DNA of 64,000 bases, taken from the IMG/VR virus record IMGVR_UViG_3300046492_000458, positions 1 through 64,000 of that record; one strand, 5' to 3'. Every line of letters starts with the position of its first letter. The stretch's first letter is position 1. Positions 5,901 to 52,120 of the stretch are shown here, one piece after another. The position numbers and the translations under genes are program-made. The notes below the pieces were generated by a model. The model had not been told where the DNA came from, searched no databases, and saw nothing but the letters and a program-made list of their open reading frames with translations. This stretch comes from a virus.

Positions 5901-6824
5901 CTAGGCCTGCTCCTCCAGGTTCCCGGCCAGCTCTTCCAGCAGTTCACGCACCGCGCTCTCGAGTTCCTCCGCCTCCCGACGCGCCCGGGCGAGGTCGGTC
6001 TCCGCCAGGGCGCGGATCCGTTCCACCGCCTTCAGTGACTCGCTCGGCGTGAGCACCTTCGGCCCCGTCTTCTTCTCCGCCTCCTGGGTGAGCTCCTTCG
6101 GCGGGCCGTAGCCGAGGAAGTTTGCGGCATCCCGCAGCGTCTTGTCGATGACGTTGCCGTGCCGGGCCGCCTCCAGCCACGTCTCCCGCACCGCCTCGGT
6201 GCCGTGCGTCTCGAGGATCGGCACCAGAATCCGCAGGGGGCGTTCCTTCAGCTCCTGGGTGGTGATGTCCTCGAGTGCCTGCGCCACCGGCATCACTCGG
6301 ATGATGTTGTTGGCCTGGTGCTTCTTGATGCCGAAGCGGGCCTCGGCGAGCTCCCCGAACGTGTCGTGTCCGGCGACCTTGTGCAGCTCCTCCACCTTCA
6401 TCGCCCGCAGCCGGAGCCCGAGCCCGATCAGTTTCTGCTGTTCGGCCCGTTCGTGGTTGGCGCGGGCCGCGTACTGCACGGCGAGGATGCCCCGCGCATA
6501 GAACTCCAGCCGGGTGGCCGGGTCGTCGCTGTCCGGCTCGGTGAAGTCCGGCATCGGCAGGTACCCGGTCGCCGCGGTCCTGACGGCCGGCACAGATTCC
6601 GTTCCCGCCGATTCCGTCTCCGCGGGCTCCGCTACGGCCAGAACGGCGGCCGGGGGTGCGGCAGGTGCCGGGACCTGCGCCACCACAGCCGCGGGCGCGG
6701 CATGCTGCTCGCGTAGCTTGCGCTGGCTGTCCTCCCACTGCCGCAGCTGGTCCTCGCGGGACTGGTCACCGCTTCCGCCGGAGCCGACGACCGGGATGAC
6801 GGGGGCGACCTTCTTCGAGCTCAC
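5901..6824 (-). CDS. parB: ParB-like centromere-binding protein
   Basis: 307 aa, GTG start overlapping the parA stop. The N-terminal 100 residues are Ala/Pro-rich and likely disordered. Residues about 105-215 are helical and contain TFGELAEARFGIKKHQANNIIRVMPVAQALEDI, a plausible helix-turn-helix. A C-terminal coiled coil follows (KAVERIRALAETDLARARREAEELESAV). It lacks the GERR box of chromosomal ParB, so it is the plasmid-type partner of ParA. The palindromes at 5807-5876 lie 25 bases beyond its stop. Identity rests mainly on operon position after parA and on the HTH plus coiled coil. Confidence 0.7.
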   Translation of the reverse strand: MSSKKVAPVIPVVGSGGSGDQSREDQLRQWEDSQRKLREQHAAPAAVVAQVPAPAAPPAAVLAVAEPAETESAGTESVPAVRTAATGYLPMPDFTEPDSDDPATRLEFYARGILAVQYAARANHERAEQQKLIGLGLRLRAMKVEELHKVAGHDTFGELAEARFGIKKHQANNIIRVMPVAQALEDITTQELKERPLRILVPILETHGTEAVRETWLEAARHGNVIDKTLRDAANFLGYGPPKELTQEAEKKTGPKVLTPSESLKAVERIRALAETDLARARREAEELESAVRELLEELAGNLEEQA

Positions 6825-7966
6825 GCCGCCAACTCCTTGGCCAGGGCGCGCATGACCTGCGCCTGACCGGAGTCAGGGGCGTGCTCGAGCAGCGGGATCT
6901 GGTAGTCGGATGCCTCGCGGCCCTCGATGGCGTCCTTCAGGGTGGCCAGCACACCGGGTGTGGTGAGCTCGCTCCACCCGTCGTAGAAGGCGCGGGTGAC
7001 AACGCCCTTGCGGGAGTCGTAGGCGTTCACGACGAACCCGAGCTGGTCGACGACCGCTCCGGTCATCCGGCTGTGGGTGTCGATCTGCTCGTTCAGCATC
7101 TCGTAGGCGTCGAACGAGGAACGGTCCGACCAGACGGGCATCAGGATTCCGGAGTGGTCGATCAGCTCGCCCGGGCGACGCTGGACGTAGTTGATGGCGA
7201 GGTCTATCGCCAGCCCCAGGTTCGGAGGGCCGTCCAGGACGATGACGTCGTAGGAGTCCTCGACGGGGGCGAGCGCGCGGGCCAGGCAGGTGTCGCGGCC
7301 GACCTGGAGGAGCGCCAGCTTGGCGTCCATCAGGAAGGCGTCCTTGCTCGCGGGCAGAACGTGGAGACGGCCGCCGAACCGTTCGTGGGGGAGCGCGACG
7401 AGGGAGCGGGCCAGGTGCTTGTCGGCCTCGCCGAGCATGTGCGTGAGGAGACTGTCGGACCCGGTGGGAAGGCCAGGGATCTGCAGGCGGCTGGTGAGGT
7501 GCCCTTGGGGGTCGTAGTCGACGAGGAGAACGCGCAGGCCGGCCTCCGCCATGGCCTGGGCGAGTCCGGAGGCCACGAACGTCTTGCCGACACCACCCTT
7601 CTGGTTGCCCACCAGGATCCGCTTCACGGGCTGGGCGACGAGGCGCTCGTCGGGGGATGGGTGGGCCTTCAGCCACAGGGTGATGGCCTGGGCCATGCCC
7701 TGGACCTTCGTCAGACTGCGGGAATCGCACTCGCTTGCGAACCGGTGCGGGCCCCCAGCGGGAAGGAACACGCCCCACGACTTCGATCCCCTGGTCTCGA
7801 TGTCCGGGGAGCCCGGGGTGTCGTACCAGAGACTGAGGGCGGAGGCGACGGCGTCCTGCATGTTCAGCCCGTGCTCGGCTGCCCTGATGCGCAGGTCACG
7901 GCGTAGCTCAGGAGTCAGGTTAACGAGCAACTTTTCGCGCGCTTCTTCGGCGCCTGGGTGGGTCAT
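6821..7966 (-). CDS. parA: ParA partition ATPase with an N-terminal DNA-binding-like extension
   Basis: 381 aa. The deviant Walker A motif GNQKGGVGKT is at about residues 118-127, followed by LLVDYDPQGHLT (Walker A' region) and VIVLDGPPNLGLA (Walker B). This is a ParA/Soj ATPase that segregates plasmids by interacting with ParB. The first 60 residues (LTPELRRDLRIRAAEHGLNMQDAVASALSLW) look like a ribbon-helix-helix or HicB-type element and could mediate autoregulation. ATG 7966 is preferred to a TTG at 7975. A TAATTT -10-like hexamer (7972-7977 on the complement) is so close to the ATG that the message may be leaderless. Confidence 0.93.
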   Translation of the reverse strand: MTHPGAEEAREKLLVNLTPELRRDLRIRAAEHGLNMQDAVASALSLWYDTPGSPDIETRGSKSWGVFLPAGGPHRFASECDSRSLTKVQGMAQAITLWLKAHPSPDERLVAQPVKRILVGNQKGGVGKTFVASGLAQAMAEAGLRVLLVDYDPQGHLTSRLQIPGLPTGSDSLLTHMLGEADKHLARSLVALPHERFGGRLHVLPASKDAFLMDAKLALLQVGRDTCLARALAPVEDSYDVIVLDGPPNLGLAIDLAINYVQRRPGELIDHSGILMPVWSDRSSFDAYEMLNEQIDTHSRMTGAVVDQLGFVVNAYDSRKGVVTRAFYDGWSELTTPGVLATLKDAIEGREASDYQIPLLEHAPDSGQAQVMRALAKELAA

Positions 7967-8691
7967 GGCGAGCAAATTACCAGGCGATCATGTTTTGTGA
8001 GGCGCACGTGGCGCGGCCCGACCGCCTGCGCCACCCGAACGGGCCTGCCAGGCAAGGGAGATGGCTCGGGAACACTTTGCCCGCGAGGTAAAGAGCGGGG
8101 CCTCGTCATGCGCCGACCAGATTCGGTCGAATACGTGCCGGATGACGGGGTTTATCTGTCACCCACCTGAGTGATCCCTGTGCAAGCCCCTTCCCGGAGT
8201 GCATATATGCGCCTTGGGTGGGGGGTGCTGCCGGTCCCCACGGCCGGCGGCTGCACGGCCGGGGACAGCCCCTTGTGGATCGCAGCCCTCCGGGGGCGGC
8301 CCGGCCGCGCTGGGCACCCGGCCCGTACAGAAACCGGGGGAACGCATCTACCTGCGTGGGGAGTTCCCGGATTAGACTGCCGTCAACGAACGGGCATGCC
8401 CGGGAGGAACCGATCGGCCCCTCGAAGTGCCTGACCATTTGGCGCCCGCAGGGGCTGTTCCCGTATCTGGATGTAGCCTCTCCGTCACCCTCTGGCCAAA
8501 ACCGTATCGAATGCATGTCAGTAGGTGGTCAATACCCGGCAGTGTCTTACCGACCGCCTGGTATCGATGCCACAGTGACAAGTCCGAGCGTCTGGACTGG
8601 CAGCCGGACGTGCGGGGGGCCCGGGCGGAGCCGACACCGACCGGGCGTACGAGGACCCTTCCCACTTCTGCCGGAGGAGCGGAGACGCCCC
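7967..8691. other. Divergent intergenic region upstream of parA
   Basis: About 725 bases with no convincing gene. It contains the parA promoter region, a short AT-rich palindrome GCATATATGC near 8198, and an imperfect inverted repeat between about 8335 and 8371 (CCGGGGGAAC / GTTCCCGG) followed by a TAGACT -10-like hexamer near 8374. These could form a rightward regulated promoter for the gene at 8692. Nothing in it resembles an RNA gene. Confidence 0.4.
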
Positions 8692-23846: not shown

Positions 23847-24652
23847 CCGACCAACCAGCGACCGAAGCGACCGAGCTGGACAAGGCGCGCCGCTACCTCC
23901 GTCCGGTGGCGGCCACGATCATCTCTGACGATCCGGATGGTGTGCACCTGGCCGTTTACTCGTGGCTGCCGATGTTCGACGAGTGGGCCACCGGTCCCGG
24001 CCTGTGTGGGGAGTCGATGCGCCAGGGGGCCCTGCCGGAGGGCACGGAGGTGACATGCCCGCGGTGTCTGGAGTGGCAGCCGAAGTATGAGCGGATGCTG
24101 GCGCCTGGCTATCGGCCGGAGGAAGACGACGCGGACGTCCTGCGGCAGCGCCTTGAGGAGTCCCAAGAGGAGACGAGGAAACTCAGGGAGCGTCTCCGAC
24201 TGACCACCGATGAGAAAATCGCGGATCTGGCCCGTCCGACCATCGACCTTCTCTATACGGAGATCGACCGCCTGAAGGCGGAGGTGGCGGCGGCCCGCAA
24301 GTTCGCGGGGGAGATGCGGGACTTCTGCTCCCCGCATGGTGTGTCTGTCGGCTACGCGGACCGGCTGCTCGAGGCCATGGACCGGGCGAAGGCGGCGGAC
24401 CCCGGCCCGCCAGGAACCGTCCGCGGGGCTGTTCCGGCCGAGTATGTACGGCTGAAGGGCCAACTCGAGGCCGATCTGCGCAAGATGACCGCCTGCGCTG
24501 CGCAGCCCCCGAAGCCGGGCGCGGAGGAGGGCCGGGTCGCGCAGGGAGGCATCGCTGCGGGCATCCGGACCTCCCTGGCGTGGGCCATCCACTGCTTCGA
24601 GGGCTCTGCGGCGCGGGAAGCGTTCCTGAAGAGGCTGGAGGGCGACCGGTGA
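23843..24652 (+). CDS. Coiled-coil hypothetical protein, 269 aa
   Basis: ATGA overlap. A start of unknown fold with CGESM ... CPRCLEWQPKYERM is followed by a coiled coil (VLRQRLEESQEETRKLRERLRL and LLYTEIDRLKAEVAAARKF, about 100-165) and a C-terminal helical part. A structural or scaffold role is possible. No family recognised; it overlaps the NERD nuclease gene. Confidence 0.6.
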   Translation: MTDQPATEATELDKARRYLRPVAATIISDDPDGVHLAVYSWLPMFDEWATGPGLCGESMRQGALPEGTEVTCPRCLEWQPKYERMLAPGYRPEEDDADVLRQRLEESQEETRKLRERLRLTTDEKIADLARPTIDLLYTEIDRLKAEVAAARKFAGEMRDFCSPHGVSVGYADRLLEAMDRAKAADPGPPGTVRGAVPAEYVRLKGQLEADLRKMTACAAQPPKPGAEEGRVAQGGIAAGIRTSLAWAIHCFEGSAAREAFLKRLEGDR

Positions 24653-25299
24653 GCGCCCCGCAGAACTCGGCGGCCGCGAAGGCTAAGGCGATCCGTGAGC
24701 ATGCCCGGCGGGGCGTGTGGCGGCGTGTCACCGCGTGGGCGGGCCTGAACCCGGCCGCGGCCCGCGCGGACGCCAAGGCGGCCCTGTGGGCGCACGGAGC
24801 CCAGGGCGAGGCCGCCACCGAAGCCCTCCTCGCACCCCTCGTACAGGCGGGCTGGACGATCCGGCACGACCTCCGATTAGCCGGGGCCCGGTGGAACGTG
24901 GACACGGTCCTCGTCTCCCCGTGCGGGACGGCAGTGGTGGTGCTGGACACGAAGGCATGGCGCCGGAACTGGCCCACCAGGCTGGTCCGCGGCCGGGTGT
25001 ACTGCGGAGACGAGGACCGGCACGGCCAGGTGGAGAAGGTCGCCGGATACGCGGAGCGGATATCCCGGGCGCTCGGCCTGCCGGGGGTGAAGGTGCTTCC
25101 ACTACTGGTGGTGCACGGCTCCCCGGTGGCCGGCGGGCACCTGGACGTCCGGATGCCCGGGATGACGGACCCGGTGTACGTGCTTGGCCCGGACTGGCTG
25201 GTCCCGACGCTGGCGGCCGCTCCGAAGGCCCGGGATCCTCGGCGTGCGGCCGCGGTGGCCGCGAGGGTGGACGCGGTACTTCACCCGTACAGGGAATGA
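24649..25299 (+). CDS. NERD-domain nuclease-like protein
   Basis: 216 aa, GTG overlapping the previous stop. GEAATEALLAPLVQAGWTIRHDLRLAGARWNVDTVLVSPCGTAVVVLDTKAWRR (about 47-102) has the NERD pattern: a G-E opening helix, an N-x-D strand and a D-T-K core as in PD-(D/E)xK nucleases. The rest, GQVEKVAGYAERISRALGLPGVKVLPLLVVHG, completes the fold. It carries a TTA leucine codon at 24877-24879, rare in Streptomyces and read only by the developmentally expressed bldA tRNA. Last gene of the run; a terminator follows. Confidence 0.8.
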   Translation: MSAPQNSAAAKAKAIREHARRGVWRRVTAWAGLNPAAARADAKAALWAHGAQGEAATEALLAPLVQAGWTIRHDLRLAGARWNVDTVLVSPCGTAVVVLDTKAWRRNWPTRLVRGRVYCGDEDRHGQVEKVAGYAERISRALGLPGVKVLPLLVVHGSPVAGGHLDVRMPGMTDPVYVLGPDWLVPTLAAAPKARDPRRAAAVAARVDAVLHPYRE

Positions 25300-26302: not shown

Positions 26303-27150
26303 CAGTAGTCGCCCTTCAGTGAGGTGATGTAGGTGGAAGCCTCGGCCTTGGACAGTTCTTCGATTCCAGCGCGGTCGGTGGGGCCCTGGAAGAATCCGCC
26401 GCCCTCGCCGGTGCGGGCCCGCACGGTCAGGAGCTGGAGGATGTAGTCGACCTGTCGGGCGGTGGCCAGCTCGCCCTTGGTGCGGCGGGCCTCGGCGAGC
26501 TGCTCTTCGCGGGCCTCGCGGACGGTCGCTTCGGCGGCGGCGATGGCGTCCTTCTCCGCCTTCTCCGCGATGCGCTGTTCGGCGCCCGCGGCATGCTGAT
26601 TCGCCCACTGGATGAGGATGTCCACGACGGTGGTGCCGGCGGGGGTGTTCTTGCCTTCGGCGGTCCAGTCGGCTTCGATCCGCATCCGCAGGTCGCTCGG
26701 GTCGCCTTTGGTGGATCCGGTGACGACCCAGTAGGTGGTGCGGTCTATGCGGCCGGCGCGGGGCAGGGCCTTTTCGATGCGGAAGCCGTCGGGGGTGTTC
26801 TCGTAGAACTTGGCGTAGAACTTGGCGAGGTCCTCGGTGAAGAAGGGCTCGCCGTGGATGCGCAGGTCCTTGCCGGGACCGTATCCGGCAGGGGTTCCGT
26901 CGGTGCGGACGATGGAGTACGTGGTGCGGGCTTTGCCGTACTGGATGGTGCTTCCTTCTTCGACGCGGTACTTCGGCTCGTCGGTCATGCGGGCCTTCCT
27001 CTGGCCGATGGCAATGCGGGCGGCGAGGGAGGCGATGTCGATGATCCAGCGGCCGGCCTGCTTGACGGCGGCGACGGCTCCGACGCGGCACCAGGTGCGG
27101 ATGGTGGCGACGGTGACGTTGGCCTGGGTGGCTGCGGCGGTGGTGTTCAT
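26302..27150 (-). CDS. HTH protein with coiled-coil domain, 282 aa
   Basis: The first 45 residues (ATQANVTVATIRTWCRVGAVAAVKQAGRWIIDIASLAARI) are a MerR-like winged HTH. The middle is beta-rich (KYRVEEGSTIQYGKARTTYSIVR, IHGEPFFTEDLAKFYAKFYENT). Residues 195-240 (AEQRIAEKAEKDAIAAAEATVREAREEQLAEARRTKGEL) form a coiled coil. ATG with GGAGGGG upstream. It is transcribed from a strong promoter flanked by GCATGC inverted repeats, and its HTH is the natural candidate for autoregulation. Confidence 0.7.
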   Translation of the reverse strand: MNTTAAATQANVTVATIRTWCRVGAVAAVKQAGRWIIDIASLAARIAIGQRKARMTDEPKYRVEEGSTIQYGKARTTYSIVRTDGTPAGYGPGKDLRIHGEPFFTEDLAKFYAKFYENTPDGFRIEKALPRAGRIDRTTYWVVTGSTKGDPSDLRMRIEADWTAEGKNTPAGTTVVDILIQWANQHAAGAEQRIAEKAEKDAIAAAEATVREAREEQLAEARRTKGELATARQVDYILQLLTVRARTGEGGGFFQGPTDRAGIEELSKAEASTYITSLKGDY

Positions 27151-27180
27151 CAGGTTCCCCTCCCTGCAAGCGGATGTTTC

Positions 27181-27221
27181 CGCATGCGTTAACTATGACA
27201 GACGGTTAACGCATGCGTCAA
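27181..27221 (-). promoter_or_regulatory. Promoter with 12-bp inverted-repeat operator
   Basis: On the minus strand -35 TTGACG (27216-27221) and -10 CATAGT (27192-27197) are 18 bases apart. CGCATGCGTTAA (27181-27192) and TTAACGCATGCG (27206-27217) form an exact 12-bp inverted repeat with 13 bases between, flanking the -10 element and touching the -35. This is a textbook repressor site. It drives the HTH/RHH pair. Confidence 0.85.
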
Positions 27222-27233
27222 CCGTTTTGAGGG

Positions 27234-27356
27234 GAAACAAAGAGCCCCGACCCAGAAGGGCCGGGGCTAACCCCGCATCGGCGGGGACAACTCGAAGTAC
27301 TGAACTGGAACACCCCCGCAGCAGCGGGGAGCAAGGCCGGTGTGTCGCGCACCAGA
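27234..27356 (-). ncRNA. Putative small RNA with two CRISPR-repeat-like hairpins
   Basis: Reading leftward: a candidate extended -10 (TGCCATAGT on the complement of 27363-27371), then a unit at 27335-27307 with stem CCCCGC/GCGGGG between TTGCT and GGTGTTCC arms, 12 linker bases, a second unit at 27294-27265 with the same stem between CGAGTTGT and TTAGCC arms, and finally a terminator AGCCCCG/CGGGGCT (27268-27243) followed by CTTTGTTT. The second unit's 3' arm overlaps the terminator stem. Stem and arms resemble type I-E CRISPR repeats of actinobacteria as I recall them. No open frame of note lies within it. RNA identity is inferred. Confidence 0.5.
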
Positions 27357-27399
27357 CCGCCCACTATGGCATGCGGCACTGACAACGCCCTCGGACATG

Positions 27400-49828: not shown

Positions 49829-52120
49829 ATGAGCATCAACGCGAACACCACCAGCCAGCCCGCCGCCAGCACCACAGAACGCCGTATCGCCAGCATCACC
49901 AGCGCCGCCCCCATCGTCATCGGCATGGGCTCCCCCTTCCTCGACGGCAGCGCCGCCTTCCTCACCACACTCGCCTACGGCAGCGTTGCCGCCCTCACCA
50001 CCGCCAACTACATGAACCGGCTCCCACCCGGCCTGCAGAACCATCTCCCGGCCGCCGACATCCTCCGCGCCCACCGCACCCCCCTGGCCATCTCCACCCT
50101 CACCAGCGGCATGGCACTCGCCCTCGGCGTCCTCCAGGGCCCCGATGGCGCCGACGCCCTCCTGGCCGGCTTCCTGACCCCGCTCAGCGTGCCAGGCATC
50201 GTCTCCCTCGGCTGGTGGGCCGCCGTCGGCTTCGTCCCCCTCAAACTCCGCAAGGTCCTCGGCCGCGTCCGCATCCCCAAGCAGCCTGCTCCCGCGGCCG
50301 ATGCACCCAGCCCCACACCCGAACCCCTCACCCCCGCAGAGCAGATCGCCTACCGCTGGCACCAGATCGTCTCCAACCGGGAAACCGGCACCCACAGGGG
50401 CCAGAACATCGAGATCCGCACCCTGTCCACGATGCGCTGGCAAGGCACCATCACCGCCCCCGCAGGCCAGTCCGTCACCGTCACCGCCGACACCGTCTCC
50501 AGCGCCTACCAGTCCACCCCCTACCAGGTCCGCGCCGCCTGGATCCGCTTCGAGGACGGCGCCCACTCCGGCGAACGCCACATCACCGTCAACCTGGTCC
50601 CGCCCCTCGAACTCGACACCAACACCCTCCAAGGCGCCTGGCGCAAGTGGGCCGCACGCTCCGGCGGCGTCATGGCCGGCACCCACCTCGAAGACGTCCA
50701 GACCGACCCCAACACCGGCGGCGAAGTCGCCCACGTCACCGCAGGAGAGAACCTCGACAAGCTGCCCGTCCCCGACCGGGCCGCCCTCGCCGGCGCCCTC
50801 CGTACCAACACCCTCCTCTGCTCCTACGCCCCCGTCCCCGGAGACCCCCGCCGCGGCATCATCCGCCTGATGAAGCACAACCCCCTCAAGAAGGGCGTCC
50901 CGTTCCCCGGCACCCACGTCCTGAAGATCTCCAAGGGCGGCTACGTCCAGATCGGCCAGCACGTCTCCGGATTCCCCGCCCGCATCCAGTTCGTCGACCC
51001 CAAACTGGGCGCCAAGCACCTCTTCATCGCCGGGGTCACCGGATCCGGCAAGGGCGGCCTCATCCAGATCGTCGCCCTCGCCGACCACGTCAACGGCCAC
51101 GCCATCATCTACGCCGACCCCAAGGGCTCCTCCAACCCAGACGTCGAAGAGATGGCCTGCTACCCCGGCCTCGGCGAAGACGGCTGCATGGGAGCCCTGC
51201 GCGTCGCCTACGCCCTGCTGCAGTGGCGGATCGAAGAGTCCGCGCGGCTGAAGATGAAGAACTTCATCGCCACGCCCGAACGCCCCTGGGTCCGCGTCAT
51301 CCTCGACGAAGCCCACGTCCCACTGTCCGAACTGGTCCAGTACCGCAAGGAAGCCCGGATCATCGTCGAAGCCCTGGCGGCCAAGGCCCGCTCGCTCGGC
51401 ATCATCCTGACCGTCGTCAACCAGGCCGTGAACGCCGACAAGCTCGGCGGCTCCACCGCCTTGCGAACCAACGTCATCCAGGGCGGCTCCCTCGTCATGC
51501 TCCGCACCGACTCCGACCAGAGCAACCTCGTCACCACCGGCTTCGAAGGCGTCGACCCCGGCCAGATCCCCGCCGCCTGGGACGTCGACCGCCCGCTCAT
51601 CTACGACGAGAGCATCGCCCTCCAGGACCCCGAATCCACCTTCGGCCTCGGCTACACCCTCGGCCCCGGCGGAGCCGCCGAAATGATGCGCGACTTCATC
51701 CTCGAGTCCGCCGCCCCCTACATCGACGAGACCGCCATCGCCTACCCCGCCGACTGGCCCGACTGGGACAACCGGCACGAGATCGCCCAGACGTCCATCC
51801 TCGGCGACGACGAAGACGAGGGCATCGTCATGGAAAGCAGCACCGGCGGCAGCGCCACCCTGGCCGGCCCGCCGAAGGAACCCACCGCCGACGAGAAGAT
51901 CCTCGCCGTCCTCCAGGACGCCGCCGACCCGATGGGCGAAGAGGTCATCTACACGCACAAGGACGACATCGAGAAGCTCGCCGCGCTCACCACCTCCACC
52001 CTTGAGAACCGGCTTTCACGGCTGGTCAAGGAGGGGCGAATCCACCGCATGCCCGGCAGCGGCCAGGCCGTCCGCGGTAAGTACGGCCTCGGCCCCACCC
52101 CGAACGACGCCGCCGCCTGA
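49829..52120 (+). CDS. traB: FtsK/TraB-type conjugative DNA translocase
   Basis: 763 aa. Residues about 25-130 contain membrane helices (AAPIVIGMGSPFLDGSAAFLTTLAYGSVAALTT, GIVSLGWWAAVGFVPL). The motor carries Walker A GVTGSGKGG (about 402-410) and Walker B WVRVILDEAH (about 487-496), then IILTVVNQAVNADKLGGSTALRTNV with an LRTDSDQSN motif typical of FtsK-like translocases. The C-terminal 80 residues (DEKILAVLQDAADPMGEEVIYTHKDDIEKLAALTTSTLENRLSRLVKEGRIHRMPGSG) form a winged helix like the DNA-reading gamma domain. Such proteins move double-stranded plasmid DNA between mycelia. The Walker A ends in KG rather than the usual K-S/T. Confidence 0.9.
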   Translation: MSINANTTSQPAASTTERRIASITSAAPIVIGMGSPFLDGSAAFLTTLAYGSVAALTTANYMNRLPPGLQNHLPAADILRAHRTPLAISTLTSGMALALGVLQGPDGADALLAGFLTPLSVPGIVSLGWWAAVGFVPLKLRKVLGRVRIPKQPAPAADAPSPTPEPLTPAEQIAYRWHQIVSNRETGTHRGQNIEIRTLSTMRWQGTITAPAGQSVTVTADTVSSAYQSTPYQVRAAWIRFEDGAHSGERHITVNLVPPLELDTNTLQGAWRKWAARSGGVMAGTHLEDVQTDPNTGGEVAHVTAGENLDKLPVPDRAALAGALRTNTLLCSYAPVPGDPRRGIIRLMKHNPLKKGVPFPGTHVLKISKGGYVQIGQHVSGFPARIQFVDPKLGAKHLFIAGVTGSGKGGLIQIVALADHVNGHAIIYADPKGSSNPDVEEMACYPGLGEDGCMGALRVAYALLQWRIEESARLKMKNFIATPERPWVRVILDEAHVPLSELVQYRKEARIIVEALAAKARSLGIILTVVNQAVNADKLGGSTALRTNVIQGGSLVMLRTDSDQSNLVTTGFEGVDPGQIPAAWDVDRPLIYDESIALQDPESTFGLGYTLGPGGAAEMMRDFILESAAPYIDETAIAYPADWPDWDNRHEIAQTSILGDDEDEGIVMESSTGGSATLAGPPKEPTADEKILAVLQDAADPMGEEVIYTHKDDIEKLAALTTSTLENRLSRLVKEGRIHRMPGSGQAVRGKYGLGPTPNDAAA

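Follow-up and report, generated by a model that had tools for sequence, protein, structure and literature searches.

CRISPR-like RNAs with regulatory or inhibitory roles are known from both sides of the conflict between bacteria and phages. In CreR, a short guide with a match next to a PAM in a cas promoter is flanked by two repeat-like units (as summarised in PMC12737573 and PMC13131331 from Liu et al. 2023, Cell Host Microbe). CreA of the CreTA type also has two degenerate repeats; nucleotides 1–5 and 7–11 of its guide pair with the target, while the 6th and 12th take no part, according to the account of this rule in PMC8501985 (see also PMC9458426). On the viral side, Racrs are phage small RNAs that resemble CRISPR repeats. 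They have been collected as solitary repeat units with SRUFinder, which, as outlined in PMC10651486, rejects any candidate that has a second repeat less than 100 bp away. Thus, CreR and Racr are each already known. In the literature searched, which consisted of open-licence papers, we came across no CreR mimic encoded by a phage. Here we describe a putative small RNA of a Streptomyces virus that, from its sequence, appears to copy the host RNA switch lowering the CRISPR genes, so that the defence would be steered to self-silencing.

The window, i.e. the whole 64,000-nucleotide stretch of DNA that was analysed, belongs to a virus record of 65,644 bases that encodes a portal protein and also an ATPase of the ParA type. 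A first-pass annotation had pointed to two type I-E CRISPR-repeat-like hairpins on the minus strand, separated by 12 bases without a spacer, preceded by an extended -10 and followed by their own terminator. The element runs from 27371 to 27243 on the minus strand and comprises the following features.

27361..27371, minus: conserved TGCCATAGTGG box, extended -10-like, presumed from its conservation to be the small-RNA promoter
27335..27358, minus: leader from the box to the first repeat, with a weak possible hairpin by folding
27306..27334, minus: repeat-like unit 1 (psiR1), TTGCTCCCCGCTGCTGCGGGGGTGTTCCA, with the canonical stem CCCCGC-N4-GCGGGG
27292..27305, minus: 14-nt guide (psiS), GTTCAGTACTTCGA, with matches to a host guide and to the cas8e promoter of genome G379
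27263..27291, minus: repeat-like unit 2 (psiR2), GTTGTCCCCGCCGATGCGGGGTTAGCCCC, whose final bases overlap the terminator stem
27271..27313, minus: predicted mature 43-nt guide RNA (handle, guide, 3' hairpin), by analogy with known type I-E processing
27243..27268, minus: intrinsic terminator AGCCCCGGCCCTTCTGGGTCGGGGCT, then CTTTGTTT

Both hairpins are indeed present (27334–27306 and 27291–27263), and their likeness to Streptomyces type I-E repeats is upheld by real arrays with repeats such as GTGCTCCCCGCCGACGCGGGGGTGTTCCG. The terminator also proved genuine, with an 11-pair stem and a T-rich tail (27268–27243). The gap had been miscounted: with the repeat taken as 29 nt including its 8-nt 3' handle, it is a 14-nt spacer, and this inter-repeat stretch, supposedly no spacer, is a guide that matches a host guide over 12 nt. 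The final 8 nt of psiR1, GTGTTCCA, would be the 5' handle of the crRNA. The CCCCGC-N4-GCGGGG stem occurs twice in the 64 kb, both times inside the element, against a mean of 0.07 in shuffled windows, and two copies were reached in one of 100 shuffles. Folded separately, the 29-mers of psiR1 and psiR2 have energies of -14.5 kcal/mol (z -2.6) and -14.3 kcal/mol (z -3.4), respectively, and the terminator has -24.9 kcal/mol (z -5.3). The leader fold (27333–27360) is weak on its own (-10.5 kcal/mol, z -1.07, with 28 of 200 shuffles equally good). In the minimum-energy fold of the whole RNA, psiR1 pairs with psiR2 instead of forming two separate hairpins, which could happen for any pair of CRISPR repeats.

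The TGCCATAGTGG box lies 26 bases from psiR1. A consensus promoter scan called no promoter there, its sole call in this stretch being that of the next gene (27221–27192). Nevertheless, among 14 contigs retrieved for comparison, nine are family members with the box preceding their first unit, and the other five are unrelated (L009, L010, L012, L013, L014). A CCGCCGGGAAACCGGCGG-like leader hairpin and a TGTCAGTG element are also conserved around the box (in L003–L008, L011, L015 and L016). Rfam and tRNA searches of the window found nothing, and a distant blastn search with the element and its surroundings (351 bases) gave no match among 50,697 phage records.

Just past the terminator, at 27177–27221 of the window, is a promoter-like TTGACG-18-CATAGT sequence with an extended -10, set in a repeated, operator-like GTTAACGCATGCG sequence. 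The gene downstream of this site (26305–27150, minus strand) has no Pfam or PHROG match. Elsewhere, the window codes for a protein with a NERD nuclease-related domain (24580–25296), and the ParA-type ATPase (6824–7975) hints at a plasmid-like lifestyle.

Type I-E systems are common in Streptomyces, as Cse1/Cas8e is present in 65 of 150 sampled genomes. Taking one Cas8e as reference, we collected the 30 nearest cas8e loci of Streptomyces, which form one clade. In 24 of them, a repeat-like unit with the same architecture as the phage element is found divergently upstream of cas8e, and the site that its guide matches is on the same strand, 85–126 bases away from this unit and likewise upstream of cas8e. 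The 23 distinct guide-site pairs match at all ten of positions 1–5 and 7–11 in 22 cases and at nine in the other, with positions 6 and 12 free (each mismatched in 20 of the 23 pairs). AAN precedes the target in all 23 pairs (AAG 8, AAT 7, AAC 7, AAA 1). Because the sites were selected on the ten pairing positions alone, this PAM is independent evidence. We named these host units CreR-type, for cas-regulating RNA, after the CreR of Liu et al. No unit was found in six of the 30 loci (L266, L269, L271, L281, L282 and L283), the first of which belongs to a genome, G026, that has another kind of mini unit (L208). Real host arrays, for their part, have 61-base periods and unrelated spacers.

In an earlier scan, the whole cas region was taken as the target; 67 guides, compared with 40 regions that were at most 20 kb long, yielded mostly chance-level matches, and the pattern emerged when the search was turned to host units with their own target. 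From the list of host units with targets, 17 of the 30 rows (13 for L240, four for L246) were recognised by inspection as array or self matches and removed; a second such list contains similar rows. In a clade with contiguous cas3 and cas8e genes (L215, L221, L225, L230), other mini units were seen, with a matching site after AAC elsewhere in the cas region. They are likely the creR or creA of that clade.

The closest host counterpart of the phage guide is in genome G379. Its guide, GTTCAGTACTTCAC, and the phage guide, GTTCAGTACTTCGA, agree at all of the first 12 nt, even at positions 6 and 12, which do not pair; they differ at positions 13–14. The cas8e-promoter site of G379, AAT followed by GTTCACTACTTGCA, matches the phage guide at all ten pairing positions. 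Thus, relative to G379, the phage guide has its match in a cas promoter, next to a PAM (AAT followed by GTTCACTACTTG, upstream of cas8e). The PAM at this site is AAT, whereas the acquisition PAM of S. avermitilis is given as AAG in PMC4762764. The target overlaps TTGCAA, which could be the -35 element of cas8e. The 12-nt guide match is carried by only one of 392 sampled Streptomyces genomes, G379 itself, and the promoters of G152 and G112 match the phage guide at nine of ten positions. The Cas8e match of G379 has one in-frame TGA, and this copy may be broken.

Comparisons of 72-nt units showed that psiR1 of the window is identical at 22–23 of 29 positions to four of five phages and at 17 of 29 to G379. 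By contrast, its guide is identical to that of G379 at 12 of 14 positions, against 7–10 of 14 for the other phages. The simplest reading of these identities is a phage repeat scaffold bearing a host-matching guide. Among 14-nt units, the psiR1 stem is perfect in five of six from phages and in none of six from hosts. A search for the architecture pattern with at most one mismatch found it in six of the 392 Streptomyces genomes, always approximately 220–255 bp from cas8e, and a reversed-pattern control found it in none of the 392. All six loci were already among the cas8e units, so that what this search adds is that no other place in these 392 genomes matches.

Two host array spacers match the phage, at 50970 on the minus strand (AAT, two mismatches in 32) and at 51095 on the plus strand (AAC, three in 32). 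Thus, hosts with type I-E systems have met this phage or a close relative. The spacers searched, 1,670 distinct ones, came from loci of Streptomyces and other actinobacteria; over the whole phage set, they gave eight matches at E 1e-5, against one for reversed spacers.

Altogether, we consider it probable that the element is a phage-borne CreR mimic, using the host Cascade to repress host cas transcription. The RNA would be transcribed from the TGCCATAGTGG box to the terminator, and host Cas6e would cut both repeat-like hairpins to leave an RNA in which the 14-nt guide stands between an 8-nt handle and a 3' hairpin. Host Cascade would then load this RNA. The complex would presumably be a short one, because the guide falls 18 nt short of the normal 32-nt spacer, which amounts to three Cas7 footprints of 6 nt each. 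The loaded complex is predicted to bind the cas8e promoter beside the AAN PAM through positions 1–5 and 7–11, the site addressed by the phage guide being AAN-GTTCAnTACTTn. With only about ten pairs, the operon starting with cas8e would be repressed and the DNA not cut, as in the published behaviour of CreA and CreR. In this manner, the phage would turn the host's autorepression circuit on the host and occupy Cascade as well. Such Cascade-dependent repression works only where Cascade is still functional.

The first-pass annotation had proposed an RNA anti-CRISPR made of solitary repeats that sequester Cas proteins. An RNA counter-defence against type I-E remains the best reading, but solitary, Cas-sequestering repeats find no support: that class demands that no second repeat occur within 100 bp, and here the second unit starts 43 bases on. 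As the guide matches both the cas8e-side host guide (12 nt) and the promoter (10 positions), Cascade-guided cas repression is the more specific reading.

The element has relatives in other viruses. The repeat pattern alone identified four further viral contigs, each with 3–5 tandem repeat-like hairpins, and the two-hairpin tandem pattern was found in at least 119 viral stretches. Sorting by period set apart ordinary arrays (a period of 61 in 203 of the 226 periods among the matches listed) and left at least 33 arrays, including that of the window, with at least one period of 30–58. Related tandem units are therefore present in more than 30 other viral contigs, most of their targets being unassigned. 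With one contig added, the 34 arrays among the matches listed contain 69 spacers of 12–34 nt, including spacers of 20 nt (21 spacers), 21 nt (13), 32 nt (7), 14 nt (6) and 26 nt (3). Among these matches, 37 of the 69 spacers are 14, 20, 26 or 32 nt long, and the 13 of 21 nt break the 6-nt steps. The repeats have diverged within one element, yet spacers recur between phages, in particular a 14-nt class, GCTTGnTACTTn, two 20-nt classes, GATGCnCATGAnGAC and AGnCTnAGGGG, and a 32-nt class, GTTGAnGGCAC. Position 6 is the most variable: of the 131 differences counted across 12 positions in 45 pairs of related guides, which are not independent of one another, 27 fall there.

We then searched host DNA for sites that match 68 distinct phage 11-mers at nine or more of the ten pairing positions after AAN. 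In 31,620 bases upstream of cas8e there are 20 matches, against 3.8 expected from the 87 matches in 723,556 bases of flanking DNA; the 20 count G152, G082 and G035 twice, and 17 are distinct. Exact 10/10 matches upstream of cas8e number two, against 0.35 expected. Sixteen of the 20 matches fall at the targets of the host's own units and four elsewhere. Among the sixteen are matches of guides from two other contigs (L085 and L023) to cas8e promoters. No 10/10 host site was found for the GCTTGnTACTTn class, whose nearest host guides differ, for GATGCnCATGAnGAC, for the 32-nt GTTGAnGGCAC class or for most others. Judging from these matches, a cas-promoter target holds for the window guide and only some of its relatives.

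The array regions of L015 and L003 have no match in phage records. That of L008 aligned with the Streptomyces phages SF1 and SF3 at the terminator only, and was set aside, as the stretches concerned harbour no array. Four phage arrays (L015, L098, L114, L121) include extra units with CTCCGC/GCGGAG stems. Real arrays with this stem exist in Streptomyces (L134), and phages may thus address two type I-E repeat families.

Some host units near cas8e have a different kind of target. In genome G140, a unit between cas3 and cas8e has the guide AGCCTTAGGGGC, which, except at positions 6 and 12, matches the ribosome-binding region of a divergently oriented ORF for a small membrane protein. This ORF is found in the following loci.

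L294, L295 and L296 (G140, G231 and G254): small membrane ORF of ~72–91 aa, divergent, beside cas8e; the unit guide matches its promoter/ribosome-binding region after AAC

Close homologues (E below 1e-20) were found in three of 295 genomes, including G140. The other two are 66 and 68 percent identical and also adjoin cas8e, with equivalent units, one of them with a single extra mismatch. From this arrangement, the small ORF looks like a candidate guard gene repressed by Cascade, of the CreTA/CrePA type. Phage guides fit the G140 site at 10 of 10 positions (L098) or nine of ten (L002, L004, L008). At the small-ORF site of L222, the window guide has no match of 9/10 or better; at that level, it matches four cas8e-promoter entries, which come from three genomes. 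Next to the window element, no toxin gene was recognised among the flanking genes, themselves uncharacterised.

These observations suggest a broader scheme, which we put forward tentatively and as one joint claim. Actinobacterial phages might carry multi-guide RNA programmes that load into the host Cascade. One guide class would silence the cas8e operon, as a CreR mimic, and another would copy the host guide that represses the small membrane-protein gene, a possible guard toxin, in the manner of CreA. The defence could then be shut off without triggering its booby trap. By carrying more than one guide, a phage would be able to reach several promoter alleles as well as two type I-E repeat families, and the element of the window would be the minimal, single-guide form.

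Other explanations were weighed against the CreR mimic. The chief rival is a Racr-type sponge, and the two differ in whether the guide matters: crRNA-mimicking repeats would tie up Cas6e and Cas7 in dead complexes, and the 14-nt stretch would be targetless. There are precedents in RacrIE1 and RacrIE2, presented in PMC10651486 as tested and functional against type I-E, and the phage psiR1, with its mostly perfect stem (five of six, against none of six in hosts), is nearer the canonical repeat than the host psiR1. Nevertheless, we regard a sponge as unlikely, since the guide shares 12 nt with a host creR-type guide and fits the promoter site at 10/10, guide classes recur across phages with their variation concentrated at position 6, and guide matches are enriched in the DNA upstream of cas8e.

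A prophage might also repress cas genes in a lysogen, against its own targeting or host autoimmunity, and not during infection. This differs from the CreR mimic in purpose and not in mechanism, the molecular action being the same. The ParA-type partition protein (6824–7975) suggests persistence in the cell, but no integrase was identified among the proteins tested, which represent part of the genome, and we find lysogen protection quite improbable. We give still less credence to a virus-borne mini-CRISPR against competing phages, although such arrays are described from archaeal viruses in PMC6858448: the repeats have diverged in one element, most spacers are short, the spacer classes recur between phages and have host creR-type equivalents, and real host arrays differ in their 61-base periods and unrelated spacers. 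Lastly, it is hardly plausible that the hairpins are ordinary terminators in tandem, or attenuators, upstream of gene 26305–27150, for although the stems are G+C-rich and a true terminator is present, no T run follows either repeat hairpin, and the element agrees with host CRISPR elements in its handle sequence, spacing and guide.

If the CreR mimic is true, it represents a new mechanism of counter-defence, in which the phage does not block Cas proteins but supplies a guide through which Cascade represses the genes that encode it. It would also account for the presence in phages of tandem CRISPR-like repeats that are diverged and have short spacers. SRUFinder discards this class by design, and its 100-bp rule may be why these tandem units were missed earlier. 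A prediction is that each phage guide matches the promoter allele of its hosts at positions 1–5 and 7–11.

Comparison with known systems sets the element apart from each of them. With its period of 43 and diverged repeats, it is no CRISPR array, which would have near-identical repeats, a 61-base period and unrelated spacers. Like the viral mini-CRISPRs, in the description given by PMC6858448, it is a short viral array expected to rely on host Cas proteins, but its guide points to a host regulatory site and not to another virus. It shares with CreA the pairing positions and the two degenerate repeats; however, the window guide matches a cas promoter and not a toxin promoter, and other family members carry guides like that of the unit facing the small membrane ORF beside cas8e. 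As with Racrs, it is a predicted phage small RNA resembling a CRISPR repeat and expected to act via host Cas6 and Cas7. Unlike those described in PMC10651486, it has two repeats with a targeted guide between them, and SRUFinder would discard it. The closest system is CreR. In contrast with CreR, however, the element is phage-encoded instead of being located at a cas locus, it has its own TGCCATAGTGG box and terminator, and its first repeat keeps the canonical stem, absent from the six host units of the same architecture. Since it sits in a 65,644-base virus record, not in a cas locus, we call it a mimic and not a member of CreR.
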